Source of the DNA: Chromatiales bacterium | GTDB lineage: Bacteria; Pseudomonadota; Gammaproteobacteria; Steroidobacterales; GCA-2729495 | Reading direction: 5' to 3' | Length of the DNA: 64,000 nt | Assembly: GCA_016789845.1 (NCBI GenBank) | Contig: JAEUQA010000013.1 | Span: 186,001-250,000, forward strand | Part shown: piece after piece, positions 38,667-48,226 of the stretch | Position numbering within the stretch: position 1 is the stretch's first letter | Layout of the letters: every line of letters begins with the position of its first letter | Made by a program: the position numbers and the translations under genes | Notes under the pieces: model-generated | The model's input: only the letters and a program-made list of their open reading frames with translations | What the model was told of the DNA's origin: nothing | Database searches by the model: none

Positions 38667-41366
38667 GTGGGGGATCAGGCTGGCGACGGGGCCCGGCGAC
38701 TGCGCTTGACCGTCCTGTGCCTGGCAGCCTTCTGCTCGGGCGCGGGCAGCCTCATCTACCAGGTCGTCTGGATCCGCAAGGTCACGGGCGTGACGTCCGC
38801 CACCGCCACCGCCACCGCGATCGTGGTCGGGGCGTTCATGGCCGGGCTCGCCTGCGGGGCGCGGCTCGCAGGGCGGCAGCAGCCGCTGCTGCGCAGGCCC
38901 CTGCTGGCCTACGCCATTGTCGAACTGGCGGCCGCCGCCCTCGCCGTCGCCTCGATTCCGGTCATCGAAGCCTCCGGCACTGTCCTTGAGCTGCCACTGC
39001 TGGAGCAACTGGGGATCCACGCGATCTGGATCCCGTACCTGGCCGTCGTGCTCTTCCTGATGGTGCCGACAACGCTGCTCGGCATGTCCCTGCCGCTGAT
39101 GATCGCCCACGACGAGCGGCATGAACGGCAGGCAGCGTACTTCGTCAACCTGGTCTACGGCACCAACACGGCGGGCGCGGTGTGCGGCTGCCTGCTGGCC
39201 GGGTTCTTCACCATCGAGCTGCTCGGGCTCCGCGGCTCGATCTTCATCGGCGCGGCGCTGGCCTCCCTCGCGGCGCTGGCGGTCGTGCCCCTGTTCCGGC
39301 GGACGGTGGGCGCGCCGGCTACCCAGGCGCCAGAACCAGTCCGGATCCGGGGGACGTACCTGCTGGCGGCGTTCGCCTGCGGCTGGGTGGCGCTGGCCGC
39401 GGAGATCGTCTGGACGCGCCTCGTCTCGCTCATCGTGACCAATACCGTCTACGCCTACACCCAGGTTCTGGTGGCCGTGCTGATCGGGATCACCGCCGGC
39501 GCCTACGCCGGGCTGCTCTTCTGCCGCTGGGCCGGCGCCCAGGCGTCGCGCGACAAGCTGGTGGGCCTGGCGATCTGCGCCATGGCGCTCGGCGCCATCC
39601 TGATGGCCGCCGTGCCCCACGCCCTGACCAGCCCGACCGTGATCGTGGATGCCACGGCGTTTGCCCGCGGCTCTTCCCTGCGGGGCATCCTTACCCTGTT
39701 CCTGATACTGGTGCCGCCGACCGCGGCCGTGGCCTTCGTCCTGCCGGTCCTGGCCCTGATCGCGTCGGAGCGGCAGCGCTTCCAGTCCTTTGGCGACCTC
39801 TACGCCCTCAATACCTGGGGTGGCGTGGCGGGCAGCCTGCTCGCCGGCCTGCTGCTGCTGCCCTGGCTGGGACTCGATCTCGCCATGCTGCTGCTGGTCC
39901 TCGCGGCACTGCTGGCGGCTGCCATCCTGGCGATTGGCTATCCCCGGCCGCTGCTGCCGGCGGCGATCATCGGCCCGGCACTCGTGGTGGTGCTCGGCCT
40001 GTCATCCGGCGTCCGGCTGCCTGAGGACGTCTACCGGCTGCGGATTGGTCCCGCCGGCAGGCTCCTCGACTTCCGGGAGACGGCCCAGAGCGATGCCATG
40101 GTCACCGAGGACGCCGCCGGCAACCGGCGGCTGTGGATCAATTCGAACTGGGTTGCCGGCACCGGCGGCGGACACTTCTCCCTCGGCCATCTGCCGGCCA
40201 TGTTCCTCGACAGGAAGGAACGCGCGCTCGGCATCGGCATGGGCACGGGCCAGACCTTTGCCGCCATCCTCGACATGGGTGTCCAGGCGCTCGATTGCGT
40301 GGAGATCAACCGCGGCGTCATCGAGCTGTCGGAAAAGTGGTTCAGCGCCGCCAACGGCGACCTCACCAGGCGCCCCGGCGTGCGCGTGATCCACGACGAT
40401 GGCCGCGCCTACCTGCGCACGACCTCCACCACCTACGACCTGATCATCCTGGAGCCGCTGCAGGCCTGGTCGGCGGGCACCACCCAGCTCTACACGGCGG
40501 AGTTCTACCGGGAGGCGAGCCGCCGGCTGGCGCCCGGCGGCGTCCTGGCCCAGTGGATCCCCTTCTACGGCCAGGATGCGGAGTCGACCCGGTCCATGGT
40601 GGCGACCGCGCTCGCCGTCTTTCCCGATGCCACGCTGTGGCTCGACTACATGGACGGGATCCTCATCCTGCGCCAGCCCCCCGCGCCCGGGTCCCGGGCC
40701 TGGTCGGGCATTGCCGCGCAGTTCGAGCAGCATGTCCGGAGCAAGGGGCCCATGGGCCGCCTCGCGACGGCGGCGGACGCCCTGGCACTGTTCCAGATGG
40801 GGCCAGCCGGACTCGCTGCCTGGACGCGCGGGGCCCGCCTGCTCACCGACGACCGCCCGTTCCTGGAGTTCGCCGCTGCCCGGGGCCTGGAGGAGGACTA
40901 CTTCCCCGAGACGCTCGAGTCCATCCAGGCCTTCCGGGACGATCCCGCCACCTACTTCGAGCGGGCCGGGGCGGACGACGGCACGTTTGCGCGGGCGGCG
41001 CTCATCCGCGAGGTCGTGAACGCCAGCGACCTGCGCCAGGGATCCCACCGCGAGGAAGCACCCCGCTACGCGGGCAGCCTCCGGGAGCTGGACGCCGGGC
41101 TCGCCCGGGTGCCCGACTCCAGCCTGCTCCAGATCCGCTACAAGCTGGGCCTCGTCGCGACATTGCCGGGCCTCACGTCGACCCCGCGGATTGAGCAGCT
41201 GTTGCTGCGGACAGTCCAGCTGATTCCGGACTATGGCCCGGCCTACGCCGCCCTGGCGGCGCTTTACGATTCCCAGAACCGCTGGGACGAGGCCCAGAGG
41301 ATGCGGGCGCGGGCGCTGGAGGATCCGCTCGTGCGGGAGGGGATGCGGAAGGGGGCCGCGGAGTAG
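38667..41366 (+). CDS. Membrane-fused spermidine-synthase-like protein with TPR-like tail
   Basis: An 899-residue protein. Residues 1-450 hold about 12 membrane helices (AAFCSGAGSLIYQVVWIRKVTG start). A spermidine-synthase-like methyltransferase-fold domain follows: GIGMGTGQTFAAILD, LDCVEINRGVIELSEKWF, VIHDDGRAYLRTT, YDLIILEPLQAWSAGTTQLYT. The usual catalytic Asp after the strand is replaced by ILEP, so polyamine synthesis is uncertain. The C-terminal 120 residues look like TPR helices (PAYAALAALYDSQNRWDEAQRM). GTG 38667 has GGGAGGAG upstream. Confidence 0.88.
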   Translation: MGDQAGDGARRLRLTVLCLAAFCSGAGSLIYQVVWIRKVTGVTSATATATAIVVGAFMAGLACGARLAGRQQPLLRRPLLAYAIVELAAAALAVASIPVIEASGTVLELPLLEQLGIHAIWIPYLAVVLFLMVPTTLLGMSLPLMIAHDERHERQAAYFVNLVYGTNTAGAVCGCLLAGFFTIELLGLRGSIFIGAALASLAALAVVPLFRRTVGAPATQAPEPVRIRGTYLLAAFACGWVALAAEIVWTRLVSLIVTNTVYAYTQVLVAVLIGITAGAYAGLLFCRWAGAQASRDKLVGLAICAMALGAILMAAVPHALTSPTVIVDATAFARGSSLRGILTLFLILVPPTAAVAFVLPVLALIASERQRFQSFGDLYALNTWGGVAGSLLAGLLLLPWLGLDLAMLLLVLAALLAAAILAIGYPRPLLPAAIIGPALVVVLGLSSGVRLPEDVYRLRIGPAGRLLDFRETAQSDAMVTEDAAGNRRLWINSNWVAGTGGGHFSLGHLPAMFLDRKERALGIGMGTGQTFAAILDMGVQALDCVEINRGVIELSEKWFSAANGDLTRRPGVRVIHDDGRAYLRTTSTTYDLIILEPLQAWSAGTTQLYTAEFYREASRRLAPGGVLAQWIPFYGQDAESTRSMVATALAVFPDATLWLDYMDGILILRQPPAPGSRAWSGIAAQFEQHVRSKGPMGRLATAADALALFQMGPAGLAAWTRGARLLTDDRPFLEFAAARGLEEDYFPETLESIQAFRDDPATYFERAGADDGTFARAALIREVVNASDLRQGSHREEAPRYAGSLRELDAGLARVPDSSLLQIRYKLGLVATLPGLTSTPRIEQLLLRTVQLIPDYGPAYAALAALYDSQNRWDEAQRMRARALEDPLVREGMRKGAAE

Positions 41367-41386: not shown

Positions 41387-42256
41387 CTACCTGAACAGCG
41401 CCACGTGGTCCTGGATGAACTGGGTCACCGACCGGGGCTCCCGGCCCATCAGCTTCCGGAACGTGTCGGTGGTGTGGTCCAGCCCGATCTCGGCGATCTC
41501 CCGGAACAGCTCGCAGACGGCGTTCAGGTGCCAGGGCTCCAGCACGTTCTTCATGCGCTCCCGGAACTGGTCCGTGGGCATGGGCACGTACTCCACCTTT
41601 GCGCCGAGCACGGCCGAGAAGCGCTCCGCCACCTGGTGGAAGGTCAGCACCTCGGGGCCGGTGATCTCGTAGCTCTTGCCCGCGTGGCCGTTGCCGGTCA
41701 GGACTTCGACGCACACGGCCGCGATGTCGCGGACGTCCGCCATGCCGGTGGTGCCGTTGCCCATGGGCAGCGAGAACTTCCGGTTGGCCTTGATGCCCGC
41801 GGCGCTCCCGAGCAGGTTCTGCATGAAGAAGTTCGGCTTCACCATGGTCCAGGCGATGCCAGAAGCCCGGCCAGCGGCGCGGATGTACTCCTCCACCGCC
41901 CAGTGGGCCTTCGGGATCGGCGTCTGCGCATGGGCGACCGCCTCCATGGACGACATCTTCACCAGGTGCTTCACGCCCGCGGCCACGGCCAGGTCGGTGA
42001 ACTGCTTCTCCTGGGCCTCCTGGTTCCTGCCGTTCGGCAGGGTCAGGAAGGCCTTGTCGACGCCCTCGAACGCCCGCCTGACGGTGTCGGCGTCGGCGAC
42101 GTCACCGACCACCAGCTCCACGCCGGCCGCCTTCAGCTCCGCGGCCTTGGCCTCGTTGCGCACGATGGCCCGCAGCTTCGCGCCCTTCTGCAGGAGCTGC
42201 TTCGCCGTTTCCCCGCCGGTTTTGCCGGTTACGCCCGTCAACAGAATCATCGTCAT
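41387..42256 (-). CDS. NmrA-like NAD(P)-binding atypical SDR
   Basis: A 289-residue oxidoreductase or sensor. Nucleotide-binding TGVTGKTGGETAKQLLQKGAKLRAIVRN, then VVGDVADADTVRRAFEGVDKAFLTLP and VKHLVKMSSMEAV, fit the NmrA/QOR2-like family. There is no YxxxK active site. It follows the small transhydroxylase-like subunit by 42 bases, so it may be part of the same transcript. Confidence 0.88.
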   Translation of the reverse strand: MTMILLTGVTGKTGGETAKQLLQKGAKLRAIVRNEAKAAELKAAGVELVVGDVADADTVRRAFEGVDKAFLTLPNGRNQEAQEKQFTDLAVAAGVKHLVKMSSMEAVAHAQTPIPKAHWAVEEYIRAAGRASGIAWTMVKPNFFMQNLLGSAAGIKANRKFSLPMGNGTTGMADVRDIAAVCVEVLTGNGHAGKSYEITGPEVLTFHQVAERFSAVLGAKVEYVPMPTDQFRERMKNVLEPWHLNAVCELFREIAEIGLDHTTDTFRKLMGREPRSVTQFIQDHVALFR

Positions 42257-42298: not shown

Positions 42299-43156
42299 CT
42301 AGGCGGCCGCCGCGAGCGTGATCACACCCAGATAAGGACTGTCGGCGCCCAGGTCGAAGGCCAGCGACCCGCGGCCCGCCGACCCTGACGTCACCTCGAT
42401 CTCGTACCGGCCGCTGTTGGGCTCCAGCCTGTCGAACCGGAACTCGCCGAAGGTGTCCGTCGTGGTCCGCGCGACCTCGCGGCCCTGCTGCTTCAGCACG
42501 ACGACGGCGCCGGCGGCGCAGTCCTCGACGCCGTTCGCCCGGGTCACCACGGTGCCGCCCACCAGGCACTTCGTCATCAGGTGCAGGTTCCGGTAGTACA
42601 CCCGGGGCTTCGTCCCGAGCTCAGGCTTGAGCACCTCCAGGCCCTCCTTCGCCCGGATCTGCTGCATCTCCGCGTCCTCGACCTTGACGGACTGGAAGAC
42701 GCCCATGGCGCAGCTCTGCTCGGCCCGGGTCCTCGTCCAGCCCTCGTCGAGGAGGTGCGCGTCGAAGATCCAGGCCTGGGGAATCTGCAGCTCCTCGTTC
42801 CAGGAGATGGCGCGGTAGGGGCAGGCGTCCACGATCTGCTTCTGGCCCCTCGACTTCACGGGATCGATGATCACGATGCCGTCCGGGCGCTTGGTGATGG
42901 CGCCGTTCTTCGCTGCCTTGATGCAGGGCGCGTCGTCGCAGTGGTTGCACATCACGGGCATGAAGTGCGCCTCGACGATCGGGTAGCTCCCCCGCTCCCG
43001 GCGCTCGATCTCCAGCCAGTTGTGGCCCTGGGGCGGCTGCGGCGCCGCGTAGCCGGGGATGTCGTTGCCGATGTGCTCGTCCTTCACCGCCAGGAAGCAA
43101 CCCCGGCAGTTATCGCACTTCGCCACGTCGACGATCATGTTCCATTTACTAGCCAT
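42299..43156 (-). CDS. Iron-sulfur subunit of a transhydroxylase-like molybdoenzyme
   Basis: A 285-residue protein related to the small subunit of pyrogallol-phloroglucinol transhydroxylase. The ferredoxin-like part (1-160) has CDNCRGC, CNHCDDAPC and CPYRAIS motifs, but I count only eight Cys (14, 17, 20, 70, 73, 78, 112, 149) where three [4Fe-4S] clusters would need twelve. The segment GLEVLKPELGTKPRVYYRNL links to a C-terminal beta-sandwich (VVVLKQQGREVARTTTDTFGEFRFDRL) like the transthyretin-like end of the known subunit. The start overlaps the large-subunit stop by eight bases. Confidence 0.85.
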   Translation of the reverse strand: MASKWNMIVDVAKCDNCRGCFLAVKDEHIGNDIPGYAAPQPPQGHNWLEIERRERGSYPIVEAHFMPVMCNHCDDAPCIKAAKNGAITKRPDGIVIIDPVKSRGQKQIVDACPYRAISWNEELQIPQAWIFDAHLLDEGWTRTRAEQSCAMGVFQSVKVEDAEMQQIRAKEGLEVLKPELGTKPRVYYRNLHLMTKCLVGGTVVTRANGVEDCAAGAVVVLKQQGREVARTTTDTFGEFRFDRLEPNSGRYEIEVTSGSAGRGSLAFDLGADSPYLGVITLAAAA

Positions 43157-46112
43157 TGACGGCCTCCGCGGGCTTCCAGGTGTCCACGCCGGTCCACTTC
43201 TCGACCTGGATCAGGGTCGTGTTGGGCTTGATTCCGTGGGATTTCTTGGTGATGGACTTGCTCGAGTTCAGCAGGTTCACGCAGCCCCCGAGATCCGTGG
43301 ACCTGCCGGGCTCGCCCGCGGGCCGGTACGACGCGGAGGCGGTCGAGGCGCTGATCACGCCCGGCCGCAGCCGGTCGGTGACCTGGGCCGCGCAGACCAC
43401 GGAGCCCCGGAGGTTCCAGAGCCTGATCAGGTCATCGTCCCTGATGCCGCGGGCTTCCGCGTCCTGCCGGCTGATGCGGGCCACCAGGTAGTAGTGCCCG
43501 TCCTTCAGCACCCGGTGCTCCCGGATATCCCGCAGGCTCGAGCCCTCGTCGTCGCCCATGAGGTGGAATGGGTAGCGGGAGTGGGGCGAGAGCAGCTGCA
43601 GGGGAAATTCCCCGAGCTCGGGGTCCCTTTTCGGGTCCTCGTAGAGCGGCATGTACTGGTTGAGCGGCGGCCGGTCCGGATCGTCGAATTTCTTCAGCGT
43701 GCTGGCGATGAACTCGAACTTGCCCGACGCCGTCTGCAGTCCCTCGCCGTAGCCCCTCACGTAGTCCGAGGGCAGCGGGTACGGCTCCGGCGTGTCCTTC
43801 TTGCGGCCCTCGTAGAACCAGTTGTTCGCCAGGGGCGCCCGGGCGGTGGCCGGGTCGGACGGCACGACGAAGTAGCCCTTCTTCAGGAACTTCCGCCAGG
43901 TGGTGTGCTTCGCCATGTCGGAGGAGTCGAACACGCGCTTGCACCAGTCGAGCTCGGTGGTGCCGCCCTCCGAGTACATGGAGCCCATGCCGAGCTTCTC
44001 GGCGATGGCGAGGAAGATGTCGTAGTCGGACTTGGACTCGCCCAGCGGCTCGATGCACTTGTGCTGCAGCGAGATCACCCGGTGGTTGTTCATGGAGAAC
44101 ATGTGGTGCACATAGCCGGCGCCCACGTTGTACCACTCGCCGATGTCCCAGCGCTCGAACACCGTGCAGGCCGGCAGGATGACGTCGGCGTAGGTGGTCT
44201 CCCCTTCCTTCCACACGGACTGGTTCACCACGAACTGCAGCTTCGGGTTCTGGTACATGGTCACCCAGCGGTTCGCGTCGACCATCGTGCCGAAGGACGC
44301 GCTGCCGTACTTGTAGATCATCTCCACGGGCACGTGGCCGGGCGACGGGTAGTGGATCGGGAAGAACTGGCCCTGCACCGACGACACGTCGGTGAGGTAG
44401 CCCGAGGCCCTGCCGTTGGCGATCGCCTCCGGCAGCCACATGCGCGGGATGCCCTGCCGCACCGAACTCATGGTGACGATGTGGGGCATGCGCTGGTAGT
44501 TGTTGGCCGAGTTGGCGCTGTACGCGAGGTCGCCGGAGAAGCTGCCCTCGGCGTAGCCCGGGAAGTAGAAGTTGAAGTCCAGCGGCGCGCCGTACTGCAG
44601 GTTGCCGAAGTTGTAGCCGGGCCGGCCGTAGCCCTGCATGGCGCCAATGATCGCCATCATGCGGGCCCACTGCACGCCCATCGGGCCGCGGCAGGCGCCG
44701 CCGACGCCCACGCCCCAGCCGCCGGCGCCAAGGTAGGTCTTCTTCGTACCCCACTCCCGGGCGAGCGCCCGCACGTCCCGGGCCGGCACGCCGGTCTCCT
44801 TCTCCTGCCACTCGGGGGTCTTCGCGACGCCGTCCGTCTCGCCGAGGATGTAGGCCTTCCACTCGTCGAAGCCGGTGGTGCGCTTCTCGACGAAGGACTT
44901 GTCGTAGATGCCCTCCGTGATCCACACGTGGCAGAGCGCCTGGGCGAACGCGGAGTCCGTGCCCGGCTTCGGCGAGATCCACTTGCCGCCCAGGTGGGCC
45001 GCCGTGTGGTTCATGTAGGGGTCGATGTGCACCATCTTGATGCCGAGCTCCTTGGCCCAGGCGCGGCGCTCGGTGCCCTCGAAGCCGTAGGTGGCGTCCG
45101 GGTCGCTGGACCAGAACACCATCATCTCCGCCTCCTTCAGGCAGTCCTCGACGGTGCCGTAGAACTCGGGGGCACCCAGGCGGAGGCTGTTGCCCCAGTG
45201 GTGCATGGCGCCCCAGTACCAGCCTTCCCAGCTGTCCGGGTTGTGCATCAGCTTGGTGACGCCGATGAGGTTCCAGAAACGGTTGAAGGCGGAGAGGTAG
45301 TGGCCCAGGTTGCCCCACTGGTGGTGGGAGCCGTTGGCGACGGCGATCGCGCCGGGACCCTTGGCCTTGGCGCGCTTGATCTCGCTACTGACGATGTTGA
45401 GCGCCTCTTCCCAGCTGATGCGCACGAACTCCGACTTGCCCCGGTTCTGGATGTTGCGCTCGCCGTTGGGATCGAAGTCCACCCGCTTCATCGGGTAGAG
45501 CAGGCGGTTCTTCGAATACACCATCGACTTCTGGCAGGCGCCGTGGGCGGCGAGCGTGGTCTTGCGCGGCGGGGTGAACTTCCTGCCCCGGGCCTCGATG
45601 GTCCAGGACGGGGCGTCCTCGTCATCGAAGTCCATGGGCGTGGTGCGGATGATCTTGCCGTCCTTCACGTAGACGAAGATGGGGCCGCCGTTGGTGCCGT
45701 TGGTGTACCGGGTGACGCCGTTGCCCATGTCGGTGCCCGACTTCCAGGTGATGGACTCCAGGCGGGCCAGGGTGGCCATGAACCAGACGGCCAGGTCGTC
45801 GGGACCGTCCAGGCCCACCTTGAAGTTCTTCGCGGCATCGATGCGCTCGAGCAGGTCGAAGGGCGGCGTGAGGAAGTTCTCGGCGATGGCCTTGTTCTTG
45901 AAGTGGATGGTCAGGTCGGGATTCTTGTGGATGCCCTTGCCCGAGCTGATCCTGCCGCCCTTCAGCTGGACCCAGCGGCCCTCCGGGACGTCCCGCAGGC
46001 GGAACTGGGCGATGCAGTCCCGCTCCTTCAGGCGCGCGGCGTAGTCCGGGTAGACGCGGGCGGCGACCCGCATGGCCTGGGGGATGCCCCAGAGGATGAG
46101 TGACAGGTTCAT
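43149..46112 (-). CDS. Molybdopterin transhydroxylase-like large subunit with N-terminal SCP2-like domain
   Basis: A 987-residue DMSO-reductase-family protein. Residues 1-120 form an SCP2/sterol-carrier-like domain (FRLRDVPEGRWVQL, NPDLTIHFKNKAIAENFLTPP). From about 130 it follows the transhydroxylase large subunit: GGPIFVYVKDGKIIRTTPMD, SHHQWGN (262-268), NPDSWEGW (291-298, which includes the presumed Mo-ligand Ser), and SPHSRYPFHLMGDD near the C-terminus. The region lacks the Fe-S Cys cluster of many relatives, as in the transhydroxylase. No twin-arginine signal is seen, so it is likely cytoplasmic. AGGAGA precedes ATG 46112. Confidence 0.88.
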   Translation of the reverse strand: MNLSLILWGIPQAMRVAARVYPDYAARLKERDCIAQFRLRDVPEGRWVQLKGGRISSGKGIHKNPDLTIHFKNKAIAENFLTPPFDLLERIDAAKNFKVGLDGPDDLAVWFMATLARLESITWKSGTDMGNGVTRYTNGTNGGPIFVYVKDGKIIRTTPMDFDDEDAPSWTIEARGRKFTPPRKTTLAAHGACQKSMVYSKNRLLYPMKRVDFDPNGERNIQNRGKSEFVRISWEEALNIVSSEIKRAKAKGPGAIAVANGSHHQWGNLGHYLSAFNRFWNLIGVTKLMHNPDSWEGWYWGAMHHWGNSLRLGAPEFYGTVEDCLKEAEMMVFWSSDPDATYGFEGTERRAWAKELGIKMVHIDPYMNHTAAHLGGKWISPKPGTDSAFAQALCHVWITEGIYDKSFVEKRTTGFDEWKAYILGETDGVAKTPEWQEKETGVPARDVRALAREWGTKKTYLGAGGWGVGVGGACRGPMGVQWARMMAIIGAMQGYGRPGYNFGNLQYGAPLDFNFYFPGYAEGSFSGDLAYSANSANNYQRMPHIVTMSSVRQGIPRMWLPEAIANGRASGYLTDVSSVQGQFFPIHYPSPGHVPVEMIYKYGSASFGTMVDANRWVTMYQNPKLQFVVNQSVWKEGETTYADVILPACTVFERWDIGEWYNVGAGYVHHMFSMNNHRVISLQHKCIEPLGESKSDYDIFLAIAEKLGMGSMYSEGGTTELDWCKRVFDSSDMAKHTTWRKFLKKGYFVVPSDPATARAPLANNWFYEGRKKDTPEPYPLPSDYVRGYGEGLQTASGKFEFIASTLKKFDDPDRPPLNQYMPLYEDPKRDPELGEFPLQLLSPHSRYPFHLMGDDEGSSLRDIREHRVLKDGHYYLVARISRQDAEARGIRDDDLIRLWNLRGSVVCAAQVTDRLRPGVISASTASASYRPAGEPGRSTDLGGCVNLLNSSKSITKKSHGIKPNTTLIQVEKWTGVDTWKPAEAVNG

Positions 46113-46236: not shown

Positions 46237-46638
46237 TCAGGTCAGCTTCAGGGCAGCAAAGAGGATTCCGAGGCCGAGCATCAGCATCGAGCCCAGCCGG
46301 ACGGTCATCGTGGTAGACAGGATTTCGAGATCCTTGCGGATCAGGGCATTGTCCTGGCGCAGCTGAACGATGTCTGCCCTGGTCTCCTGCCGGAGCTGTT
46401 GCAGGTCTGCCTTGGTCTCCTGCCGGAATTGTTGCAGGTCCGACCTCGTCTCCTGCCGGAGGAGCCGCAGGTCTGCCCGGGTGGCCTGTTGCAGCAGCTG
46501 CAGGTCCGACTTGGTCGCGATTGTCGTGGCCATGTCCCGCTCCATCGCGTCAACAACGGCCCTCGCCTTGTCGTTCGGGACGTGGATGCTGACGAGGGCA
46601 TCATACAGCGAGTAGAGGTAGTCCACGGAGTGCCTCAT
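46237..46638 (-). CDS. Coiled-coil protein with 11-residue repeats and C-terminal membrane helix
   Basis: A 133-residue protein. Residues 45-100 hold five successive 11-residue repeats of the form TRADLQQLRQE (33-bp period in the DNA), consistent with a right-handed or hendecad coiled coil. A C-terminal helix GSMLMLGLGILFAALKL anchors it. The arrangement (soluble head, stalk, membrane end) resembles DUF1640/CCDC90-like proteins. The start at 46638 (MRHSVDYLYSLYDALV) is best, as the upstream extension lacks a family pattern. Confidence 0.75.
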   Translation of the reverse strand: MRHSVDYLYSLYDALVSIHVPNDKARAVVDAMERDMATTIATKSDLQLLQQATRADLRLLRQETRSDLQQFRQETKADLQQLRQETRADIVQLRQDNALIRKDLEILSTTMTVRLGSMLMLGLGILFAALKLT

Positions 46639-46703
46639 GGGGGCGAGCCGGCGCGATCGATGAACACAGGCTAGCGTCAACCTGCGCCGGGGGTAAGCCG
46701 GAT

Positions 46704-47144
46704 TTACGACGAATTTGCCAACAATTGGGCTGAAGCCCCGGGGTACCCCGCCGGCCCGGTGATCGTCAGCCCCGCCGCCCTCACCTTCTTCCGCAGCTTG
46801 AGCAGGTCCCGGTCCCGGGTGATGAGCCAGCGTGCCCCGGCGGAGAGCGCCAGGTCCAGGAACTTCTGATCGTCCGGGTCGCGGCACCGGCAGGGGGCGG
46901 GCGCGATGTCACCGACCAGCACCGCGAGGGACTCCCACTGGCGCAGCAAACCGGCCTGGCGGTCGGTCGCCACGTTGAAAAGGTCGGGCCGGCCCAGCAC
47001 CTCGGCCAGCTCGACGTCCGTCGCGGCCGAGCGCACCGGAATCAGGTCGCCCCGTGCCAGGGCGTCCCGCAGTGCGTCCACGCCGGGCTCGCGGAAGAAC
47101 CAGAGGGCGAGCCAGACGTTGGTGTCGAGGACGACCCTACTCAA
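46704..47144 (-). CDS. PIN-domain putative toxin or nuclease
   Basis: A 146-residue PIN-fold protein (COG1569-like). Acidic residues are placed as in the active site: VVLDTNVWLALWF, DVELAEVL, DPDDQKFLDLALSAGARWLITRDRDLL. PIN proteins of this group are RNases, often toxins, but no antitoxin gene is adjacent. The likely start is TTG 47144, overlapping the VOC gene stop by eight bases, which suggests cotranscription rather than a toxin-antitoxin pair. Confidence 0.82.
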   Translation of the reverse strand: MSRVVLDTNVWLALWFFREPGVDALRDALARGDLIPVRSAATDVELAEVLGRPDLFNVATDRQAGLLRQWESLAVLVGDIAPAPCRCRDPDDQKFLDLALSAGARWLITRDRDLLKLRKKVRAAGLTITGPAGYPGASAQLLANSS

Positions 47145-48135
47145 ACAGTTCCTGCAGGGCGCCGCTGCCGGGATTGCGCACGATCATCGCCTTCCGCTTG
47201 CCGCGGCCCGGCAGGTCGATGGTCATGGGTGCCGTGTACACCTCCGCGCCGACCGCCGCACAGGCCTGCGCCGTCTCCGCCAGGTTGGCCACCTGGAAGG
47301 ACTGGGCCAGGTAGCCGATGTTCGGTGCCACGGCATCGGGCACCAGGTTCGGCACCTCGTAGTTCATGGGCGTCGCCAGGGCGACCTTGCCGTACTCGTG
47401 GGCGCCCTGCACCAGCACGCTCCGGGTCTCGCAGTGCGGGGGCAGGCACAGGGCGCGGTTCGTCTCCGGGCCCTTCAGCACGGACTCGATGAACACCGTC
47501 ATGTGCAGCGGGCCGTAGTAGAAAGCCAGCGCCTTCTCCATGTCGAGCACGCCGTGGGCCGTCGTGACCACCGACGTGAAGCCCGTTGGCGTGCGGCCAT
47601 ACTCGGTGATGAACTGGATGATGCGGCCGATCACCGTCTTCGGGCTGTCCGACAGCAGCTGGATCAGGTTGATGACGACGCCATCCGGCCCGTCGAAGGC
47701 GGCCTCCAGCGTCTCCCCCACCACCGGCCCGAAGTTGTTGTGGGCCGGCTGGCTCCAGAAGTTGAAACCCTGGGACTTGAGCTTCTCGTAGTCCTTCGCC
47801 ATGTCGGCGGCATAGATGTTCAGGTTGAACAGGCCCGTGGCCCGGCGGATCTCGGCGGGGCGGACCAGCTTGCGGTTGGGCGCGTCGAACTCCATGAGCT
47901 GGATGCGGCCCACCGGGTCCGCGCCCTGGCCGAGGAACGCCACGCGGGCCTTCGAGCCCGCGGGCAGGTGCCAGTAGCGCTCGAAGTCCGGGCCCTGCCA
48001 GGTGCGGGACTCGCTGACCTCGAGGCCCAGGGTGCCGGAGTAGAACTTCAGCGAGTCGTCGAGGCTCTTCGCGCCGATCACTACGGCACTGACGGGGGCG
48101 CTGGCCAGAATACCGGGAAGGATCTTTTCATTCAT
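47137..48135 (-). CDS. VOC-superfamily (glyoxalase/dioxygenase-like) protein
   Basis: About 332 residues with two vicinal-oxygen-chelate-like modules: SAVVIGAKSLDDSLKFYSGTLGLEVSE...RYWHLPAGSKARVAFLG and TSVVTTAHGVLDMEKALAFYYGPLHM...ALCLPPHC. Glyoxalases, extradiol dioxygenases and resistance proteins share this fold. ATG 48135 (MNEKILPG) is used; a GTG at 48210 would fall inside the katG terminator. The gene lies downstream of katG and just before the PIN gene. Confidence 0.82.
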   Translation of the reverse strand: MNEKILPGILASAPVSAVVIGAKSLDDSLKFYSGTLGLEVSESRTWQGPDFERYWHLPAGSKARVAFLGQGADPVGRIQLMEFDAPNRKLVRPAEIRRATGLFNLNIYAADMAKDYEKLKSQGFNFWSQPAHNNFGPVVGETLEAAFDGPDGVVINLIQLLSDSPKTVIGRIIQFITEYGRTPTGFTSVVTTAHGVLDMEKALAFYYGPLHMTVFIESVLKGPETNRALCLPPHCETRSVLVQGAHEYGKVALATPMNYEVPNLVPDAVAPNIGYLAQSFQVANLAETAQACAAVGAEVYTAPMTIDLPGRGKRKAMIVRNPGSGALQELFE

Positions 48136-48190
48136 CGAGGAGGGACTCCGCAGGAGGCAGGCCATGAGGGCTTCTTTGCCCGGCATTCTA

Positions 48191-48226
48191 AACAAAAACG
48201 GCGGCGTCACGGATGACGCCGCCGTT
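48191..48226 (-). terminator. Rho-independent terminator of katG
   Basis: A perfect 13-bp stem (48197-48209 with 48214-48226) around a 4-base loop, followed on the minus strand by TTTTTGTTT. It lies 24 bases beyond the katG stop. It is a standard intrinsic terminator, separating katG from the VOC gene. Confidence 0.9.

Follow-up and report, generated by a model that had tools for sequence, protein, structure and literature searches.

The window analysed here, a stretch of 64,000 nucleotides from the Chromatiales bacterium contig JAEUQA010000013.1 (positions 186,001 to 250,000), carries on its minus strand a pair of adjoining genes for a predicted two-subunit molybdenum enzyme. The open reading frame (ORF) at 43149..46112 (-) encodes a large subunit of 987 residues, in which ORF analysis, Pfam, phmmer and structure alignment identify an N-terminal domain with the fold of sterol carrier protein 2 (SCP2) joined to a molybdopterin core of the RhL/PGTL type, PGTL and PGTS being the large and small subunits of pyrogallol-phloroglucinol transhydroxylase. 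It opens with the minus-strand ATG at position 46112, with AGGAGA directly upstream, and its stop codon overlaps the start of the gene for the small subunit, an iron-sulfur protein of 285 residues (42299..43156 (-)) that matches PGTS (4v4c_B) at E 1.4e-71. A first-pass annotation of the window had placed the large-subunit frame correctly in both position and strand. For this pair computation establishes an SCP2 fold, a PGTL-type core with the Mo-ligand Ser and the His/Asp/Tyr set, an iron-sulfur partner, a single fusion event and one later loss of two cluster cysteines from that partner.

The N-terminal domain covers residues 1-125 (45738..46112 (-)), and the motifs RWVQLKGG and DLTIHFKNKAIAENF both fall within the N-terminal part of the subunit. 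In sequence searches the SCP2 signal is faint: Pfam SCP2 scores 13.0 bits against a curated cut-off of 21.3 (E 0.14), 14 of the 48 family members scanned singly match it at E<=1 (best E 0.0019), and a profile built from N-terminal sequences matches nothing in the PDB up to E 10. The structural signal is clear. AlphaFold2, given an alignment of 48 sequences, models the domain with a predicted local distance difference test (pLDDT) score of 82.7 and a predicted template modelling score of 0.71, in the element order H-H-EEEE-H-H-E-H that is typical of SCP2, and the full-length model repeats the N-terminal elements of this model. Foldseek returns 33 PDB matches at E<=0.001, all of them SCP2-domain proteins or alkylsulfatase-type enzymes, and all of which we take to have the SCP2 fold. 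They include alkylsulfatases and YjcS relatives, UbiJ, AF1534 and insect and mammalian SCP2; the alkylsulfatases, the best matches, are covered in their SCP2-like C-terminal domain. The fold list also holds macrolide methyltransferases and Eis, other enzymes with this fold. In VIA-align against the PDB the domain superposes on the SCP-2-like domain of human MFE-2 with Z 12.1-12.3 over 111 residues (root-mean-square deviation 2.7-2.8 A). The predicted SCP2 fold of residues 1-125, which the first-pass annotation had proposed from the letters, is confirmed in this way, with structure prediction decisive and the sequence signal weak.

Pfam calls no domain in the N-terminus above its cut-off, as would be expected if this part owed its existence to a wrong start codon or an assembly artefact, or its likeness to chance. 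Such an explanation can be given almost no weight. The same N-terminus is present in 77 of 80 loci, where the match begins at query residue 1-6, and the remaining three are truncated by contig ends; these loci are the best of 288 and skewed towards close relatives, with one of the six search patterns taken from the N-terminus, which makes the set unsuited to estimating how frequent SCP2-less forms are. The domain is also under purifying selection (dN 0.131 and dS 1.033, nonsynonymous and synonymous divergence, in the comparison with L009), its fold is predicted with confidence, and the sequence ahead of the ATG resembles a ribosome-binding site. A start-codon or assembly artefact was rejected on the shared N-terminus, the dN/dS values and the AGGAGA upstream of the ATG. 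For the dN/dS comparison the L014 core row was dropped on account of a frame-shifting indel (dN 0.54), and the core of four further pairs was limited to residues 143-500.

Beyond this domain, residues 133-975 (43188..45716 (-)) match PGTL (4v4c_A) with a phmmer E of 8.7e-277 and 923.9 bits, in line with the first-pass reading that the subunit follows that enzyme from about residue 130. Because the alignment starts only at residue 133, which pairs with PGTL residue 4, some 130 N-terminal residues are extra to PGTL, and the SCP2 domain is indeed absent from it. The full-length model (mean pLDDT 74.3, low near the cofactor loops) aligns with 4v4c_A from residue 130 with Z 33.6 over 818 residues at 48% identity. 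Pfam recognises in the core the AhtL-like first domain (PF21423, 104 bits against a cut-off of 27) together with the Molybdopterin and dinucleotide-binding domains.

In a 76-row alignment His263 (45324..45326 (-)), Asp293-Ser294 (45231..45236 (-)) and Tyr520 (44553..44555 (-)) pair with PGTL His144, Asp174 and Ser175, and Tyr404, respectively. We take Ser175 to be the molybdenum ligand of PGTL and His144, Asp174 and Tyr404 to be functional residues. The positions of His144, Ser175 and Trp176 are invariant in all 76 rows, while that of Tyr404 is kept in 69/69 rows (57 SCP2-bearing and 12 SCP2-less) and that of Asp174 in 68/69. Two further positions vary. At that of PGTL Arg153, the SCP2-less rows have Arg or Lys and 57/57 SCP2-bearing rows have Tyr or Trp; at that of PGTL Tyr152, His is found in 12/12 rows of the window's clade (His271 in the window, 45300..45302 (-)) and Tyr in the 57 others. 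Since these pocket residues differ from those of PGTL, the substrate of the SCP2 clade, and again that of the window's clade, probably differs from that of PGTL.

With a PGTL-type core, an AhtL-like domain, Ser294 and an adjacent PGTS-type subunit, the pair belongs to the RhL/PGTL family of MopB, the dimethyl sulfoxide (DMSO) reductase superfamily. It does not fit the type II DMSO-reductase group (with ethylbenzene dehydrogenase and steroid C25 dehydrogenase), which we take to have Asp as its molybdenum ligand: the ligand position holds Ser, and TIGR03479 scores 143.9 bits against 984.75. The pair also departs from pyrogallol-phloroglucinol transhydroxylase proper in its N-terminal extension, the absence of the Arg153 pocket and the smaller number of cluster cysteines.

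In a tree of 76 cores the 57 SCP2-bearing rows all lie on one side of a single branch (length 0.40, support 100 in the Shimodaira-Hasegawa-like approximate likelihood ratio test, SH-aLRT), and the 12 SCP2-less rows, eleven loci and PGTL, all lie outside. The tree was built from core residues 133-975 with the SCP2 part excluded, on rows hand-chosen from 172 loci with a match (near-copies and L149, with its broken frame, omitted), by a quick search with SH-aLRT as its sole support measure and with PGTL and L141 on long branches. As all SCP2 rows form one clade with the SCP2-less rows outside it, the fusion arose once and was then kept; it has a single origin. The fusion thus occurs in other genomes too and is not common to all transhydroxylase homologues; with the SCP2 fold predicted as well, neither of the two findings that the first-pass annotation had named as fatal to its reading came about. 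By record titles the clade includes Pseudomonadota, Acidobacteriota, Chloroflexota, Thermodesulfobacteriota and Myxococcota, and the window's own clade within the tree has a long stem (0.46). The gene is found at E<=1e-50 in 47 of 99 genomes (the window's genome and relatives), that is, in 38/40 genomes of the window's family and 9/59 elsewhere in the order. PF21423 occurs in 2/398 genomes of a broad draw from the phylum, own genome included, the second match being below the cut-off. SCP2-less homologues show 45-53% identity, and in three genomes (G496, G502 and G503) an SCP2-less copy lies 11-17 kb from an SCP2-bearing one on the same contig. In Sinorhizobium terangae (L233, NZ_CP121660.1 786000-806000) the domain is matched at 796459-796833 and the core at 792389-794935, on the same strand with about 1.5 kb between them, as if an insertion had split the gene.

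The small subunit has a history of its own. PGTS has twelve cluster-type cysteines, four of which (Cys23, 126, 129 and 145) are missing in 11/11 sequences of the window's clade; by the usual motif pairing these four are presumably the ligands of one [4Fe-4S] cluster, with two clusters then expected in the window's small subunit against three in PGTS. At 50 other SCP2 loci, Cys126/Cys129 are replaced by Trp/Asp in 35 and retained in 15, and both are retained at 17/17 SCP2-less loci, counts in which some loci figure twice because the retrieved regions overlap. Mapped on the tree, the loss of the two cysteines takes a single step (41 rows lost, 24 kept). The SCP2-clade rows that retain the two cysteines are of Chloroflexota, sulfate-reducer and deltaproteobacterial type and nest inside the SCP2 clade, which places the cysteine loss later than the fusion.

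The neighbours of sister enzymes bear on the substrate. Gene calls at these loci, plasmids excepted, are our own ORF picks by conservation, not annotation. Three SCP2 enzymes from anaerobe-type genomes (L057, L061 and L069) adjoin genes for a PF04199 cyclase, an SDR, a BKACE, a cupin and a 3-hydroxyacyl-CoA-dehydrogenase-like protein, the last named by sequence inspection without a Pfam run. Minus the cupin, this is the phloroglucinol-pathway gene set of Clostridium scatologenes (PMC10470551). Four of the five genes of the phloroglucinol-type set recur at L179 and three at L078, and all five at L133, which lacks the SCP2 domain. Elsewhere in the clade an SCP2 gene follows pyruvate-dehydrogenase-type E1, E2 and E3 genes (L171), or E1 and E3 genes, with an E2-like sequence included, are divergent from it (L170). 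We take these E1/E2/E3 genes to be bqd, the hydroxybenzoquinone dehydrogenase of anaerobic resorcinol degradation. Phloroglucinol and resorcinol are small, water-soluble phenols. Where a pathway can be named from gene content, it is small-phenol breakdown, and SCP2-bearing and SCP2-less enzymes occur in the same operon type. One group of SCP2 enzymes is accompanied by a further molybdopterin oxidoreductase, smaller at about 710 residues (L065:5101-7221; also L060, L071, L080, L087, L169 and L173), and by cupin and LysR genes.

The first-pass annotation had taken the domain as the mark of a steroid, lipid or hydrophobic-phenol substrate. Given these small-phenol pathways and the shared operon type, that step is not supported; the annotation's statements on the SCP2 fold, the absence of the domain from PGTL and the PGTL-type core hold. 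The corresponding explanation, in which the domain is a built-in carrier that supplies the molybdenum site with a hydrophobic phenol, be it a steroid, a resorcinolic lipid or an alkyl or prenyl phenol, is unlikely, although several observations favour it. Besides the SCP2 fold, the best Foldseek matches are alkylsulfatases, whose SCP2-like C-domain presumably helps with alkyl substrates; the window's clade has a pocket of its own, with His271 among several changes; and plasmid relatives in Paraburkholderia, Ensifer and Burkholderia have as neighbours genes for VOC and FAH-hydrolase proteins, acyl-CoA synthetase and outer-membrane (transport) proteins (a Salipiger plasmid relative has a partly different neighbourhood). 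The plasmid-cluster VOC proteins show no BLAST relation to that of the window at E 1e-5, for which reason the two are not equated. A further point in favour is that the window's genome has three more large type II molybdoenzymes (L191:4908-7730(-), L192:3053-5923(-) and L193:87-2882(-)), close to the alpha subunits of ethylbenzene dehydrogenase and perchlorate reductase and thus of a group with hydrocarbon and sterol substrates; one stands beside a type II chaperone. Sets of this kind are known from bacteria with oxygen-independent hydroxylation of hydrocarbons or sterols. However, the phloroglucinol operon type is common to SCP2-bearing and SCP2-less enzymes, other SCP2 enzymes stand beside resorcinol-type E1/E2/E3 genes, and the domain is kept in 57/57 SCP2 rows whatever the pathway.

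Within the window's own clade (46 loci, or 47 with the window counted) the small subunit adjoins the large one in 44/46 loci. Two further partners are each conserved in part of the clade: upstream a VOC-superfamily protein (47137..48210 (-) in the window, by Pfam; 16/42 loci with enough flank), and downstream an NmrA-like NAD(P)-binding protein (41387..42256 (-), by Pfam; 10/39 loci with enough flank). A Nitrate_red_del chaperone, of the kind that serves molybdoenzymes, is nearby in 12/46 loci, and MoeA (9/47), MobB (5/47) and HiPIP (6/47) genes also occur; in the window's genome a related chaperone is encoded at another site, beside a type II molybdoenzyme. The phloroglucinol-type set was found neither beside the window's gene nor in the flanks of its clade's loci, the E1/E2/E3 genes gave no match in those flanks and were seen only beside other SCP2 enzymes, and a PDB sequence search with the window's VOC protein gave no meaningful match. 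With neither phenol-pathway set in the flanks examined, the substrate of the window's clade may be hydrophobic, and the plasmid clusters with acyl-CoA synthetase leave room there for phenols with side chains.

Many relatives have their VOC gene just 50-260 bases or so upstream of the large subunit. In the window the interval between them (46237-47144 (-)) holds two frames, of which 46704-47144 is a PIN-domain gene and 46237-46887 has no Pfam match; the operon seems to have taken up a toxin-type insertion here. In one relative a pyrroloquinoline quinone-type alcohol dehydrogenase gene (L037:5853-7841(+)) separates the VOC gene from the large subunit. On the plus strand of the window, 38667-41366 encodes an 899-residue protein with a spermidine-synthase-like domain and weak C-terminal tetratricopeptide repeat matches.

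As to what the domain does, it might be a structural or oligomerisation module with no functional ligand. It diverges faster than the core does, at a mean p-distance of 0.586 vs 0.362 over 36 rows, and the macrolide methyltransferases and Eis in the match list share its fold; such a role is possible, if on the unlikely side. Against it, the domain is retained by every row of the clade under purifying selection, and its relatives exist as separate proteins, which argues that it has a job without the enzyme. Distances in domain and core correlate (r 0.80, reached in 0/2000 permutations; r 0.36 in the 443 distant pairs alone). A profile of the domain finds free-standing proteins in 24 of a further 397 Pseudomonadota genomes, the open frames being 123-248 residues long, and these SCP2-like proteins (L222:4114-4497(-), L226:4108-4539(+) and others across L223-L232) are below the Pfam cut-off. 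At 11 free-standing loci, rubredoxin reductase is encoded within 4-5 kb in 8/11, ubiC in 7/11 and ubiA in 7/11; at L222 the rubredoxin reductase gene lies 10 bases from the free-standing gene on the same strand and is followed by rubredoxin. An HU gene is often present as well. The ubi and rubredoxin neighbours, together with UbiJ among the fold matches, suggest a hydrophobic redox ligand or membrane docking for the domain.

The same neighbours recall ubiquinone synthesis, in which UbiT and UbiJ are thought to present the polyprenyl phenol. That the window's enzyme family makes ubiquinone without oxygen, its SCP2 domain presenting the polyprenyl phenol, is nevertheless most improbable. In its favour are the core-gene look of a gene carried by 38/40 genomes of the family, the free-standing relatives near ubiC and ubiA, and the fact that a UbiU/UbiV-type peptidase U32 gene was not found in the window's genome. 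In that genome (L182:1219-1866(-), L183 and L184), however, ubiE and ubiB flank a UbiJ gene, and UbiH/UbiI-type hydroxylases are encoded as a tandem pair. Close relatives with the SCP2 domain are found in Chloroflexota and in sulfate-reducer-type genomes, and also in catabolic operons. To our knowledge neither Chloroflexota nor sulfate reducers make ubiquinone.

The reading we favour, plausible but still tentative, is that the pair is an oxygen-independent molybdenum phenol-ring hydroxylase of the RhL/PGTL family that gained its SCP2 domain once, as a docking or hydrophobic-cofactor module. Within a catabolic pathway the enzyme would add a water-derived hydroxyl to a phenol, like resorcinol hydroxylase in its net hydroxylation, and would not shuttle hydroxyls between two phenols like PGTL. 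Net hydroxylation by water would free two electrons, where a transhydroxylase has none to dispose of, and the two soluble subunits would have to pass them on to the respiratory chain by some path. The SCP2-like domain may help to carry them off by contact with the membrane surface or a quinone, and it would then be no sign that the phenol itself is greasy. The hydroxylase assignment draws on the PGTL-type core and small subunit, the single SCP2 clade, the conserved active-site residues with the changed Arg153 position, the phloroglucinol and E1/E2/E3 genes beside SCP2 enzymes and the chaperone, MoeA, MobB and HiPIP genes near the window's clade; the docking role draws on the neighbours of the free-standing loci, the UbiJ fold match and the one iron-sulfur cysteine change inside the SCP2 clade. 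It is rather unlikely, though conceivable, that the captured domain binds quinone or docks the pair on the membrane so as to turn a redox-neutral shuttle into a respiratory, water-using phenol hydroxylase. If true, an SCP2-fold domain would serve electron transfer, a role of which we recall no description, and the pocket change from Arg/Lys153 to Tyr/Trp and the later surrender of an iron-sulfur site would go with it.

Several points weigh against the docked hydroxylase. Ligand binding, membrane association and activity of the pair are all predictions, and the neighbours in the window's clade (VOC, chaperone, NmrA) name no pathway. The place of RhL in the SCP2 clade is presumed from operon content. 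Anaerobe-type SCP2 enzymes keep all cluster cysteines, so that fusion and cysteine loss are separate events, and a lost cluster site would be just as compatible with a smaller importance of electron export. HU genes are also conserved at the free-standing loci, so that the link to ubi and rubredoxin genes may be mere synteny.

Few molybdenum enzymes are known that hydroxylate aromatic rings without oxygen. The present analysis delimits a broad branch among them that carries the SCP2 fusion and is present in nearly every genome of one gammaproteobacterial family, and raises the testable question of why a lipid-carrier fold stayed on a phenol hydroxylase across the whole branch. It also advises caution, as a fused SCP2 domain alone is a poor guide to substrate. 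In titles and abstract openings, a search that left most subscription journals outside its reach found no description of an SCP2 domain on a molybdoenzyme, and by title no relevant paper on a link to resorcinolic lipids.

Known systems share parts of this design. UbiJ and UbiT have the same fold, and UbiJ is among the matches to the domain; however, both are separate proteins not fused to a hydroxylase, and UbiJ shows 8-11% identity in structure alignments. The alkylsulfatases SdsA1 and Pisa1, the best Foldseek matches, are likewise enzymes with an SCP2-fold domain, although their catalytic domain is unrelated and the SCP2-like domain sits at the opposite, C-terminal end. The resorcinol hydroxylase of Azoarcus anaerobius (RhL/RhS) resembles the pair in that the E1/E2/E3 genes we presume to belong to the resorcinol pathway adjoin the SCP2 enzymes L170 and L171, and differs in that these genes were not found in the flanks of the window's clade. 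RhL and PgtL are grouped together as Ser-ligand hydroxylases in PMC10100899. PGTL/PGTS is like the window's pair in core fold, Mo-ligand Ser, the equivalents of His144, Asp174 and Tyr404 and the two-subunit build; it differs in having no SCP2 domain, in having Arg153 and Tyr152 where the window's enzyme has Tyr and His, and in possessing the four cluster cysteines that the window's small subunit has given up.

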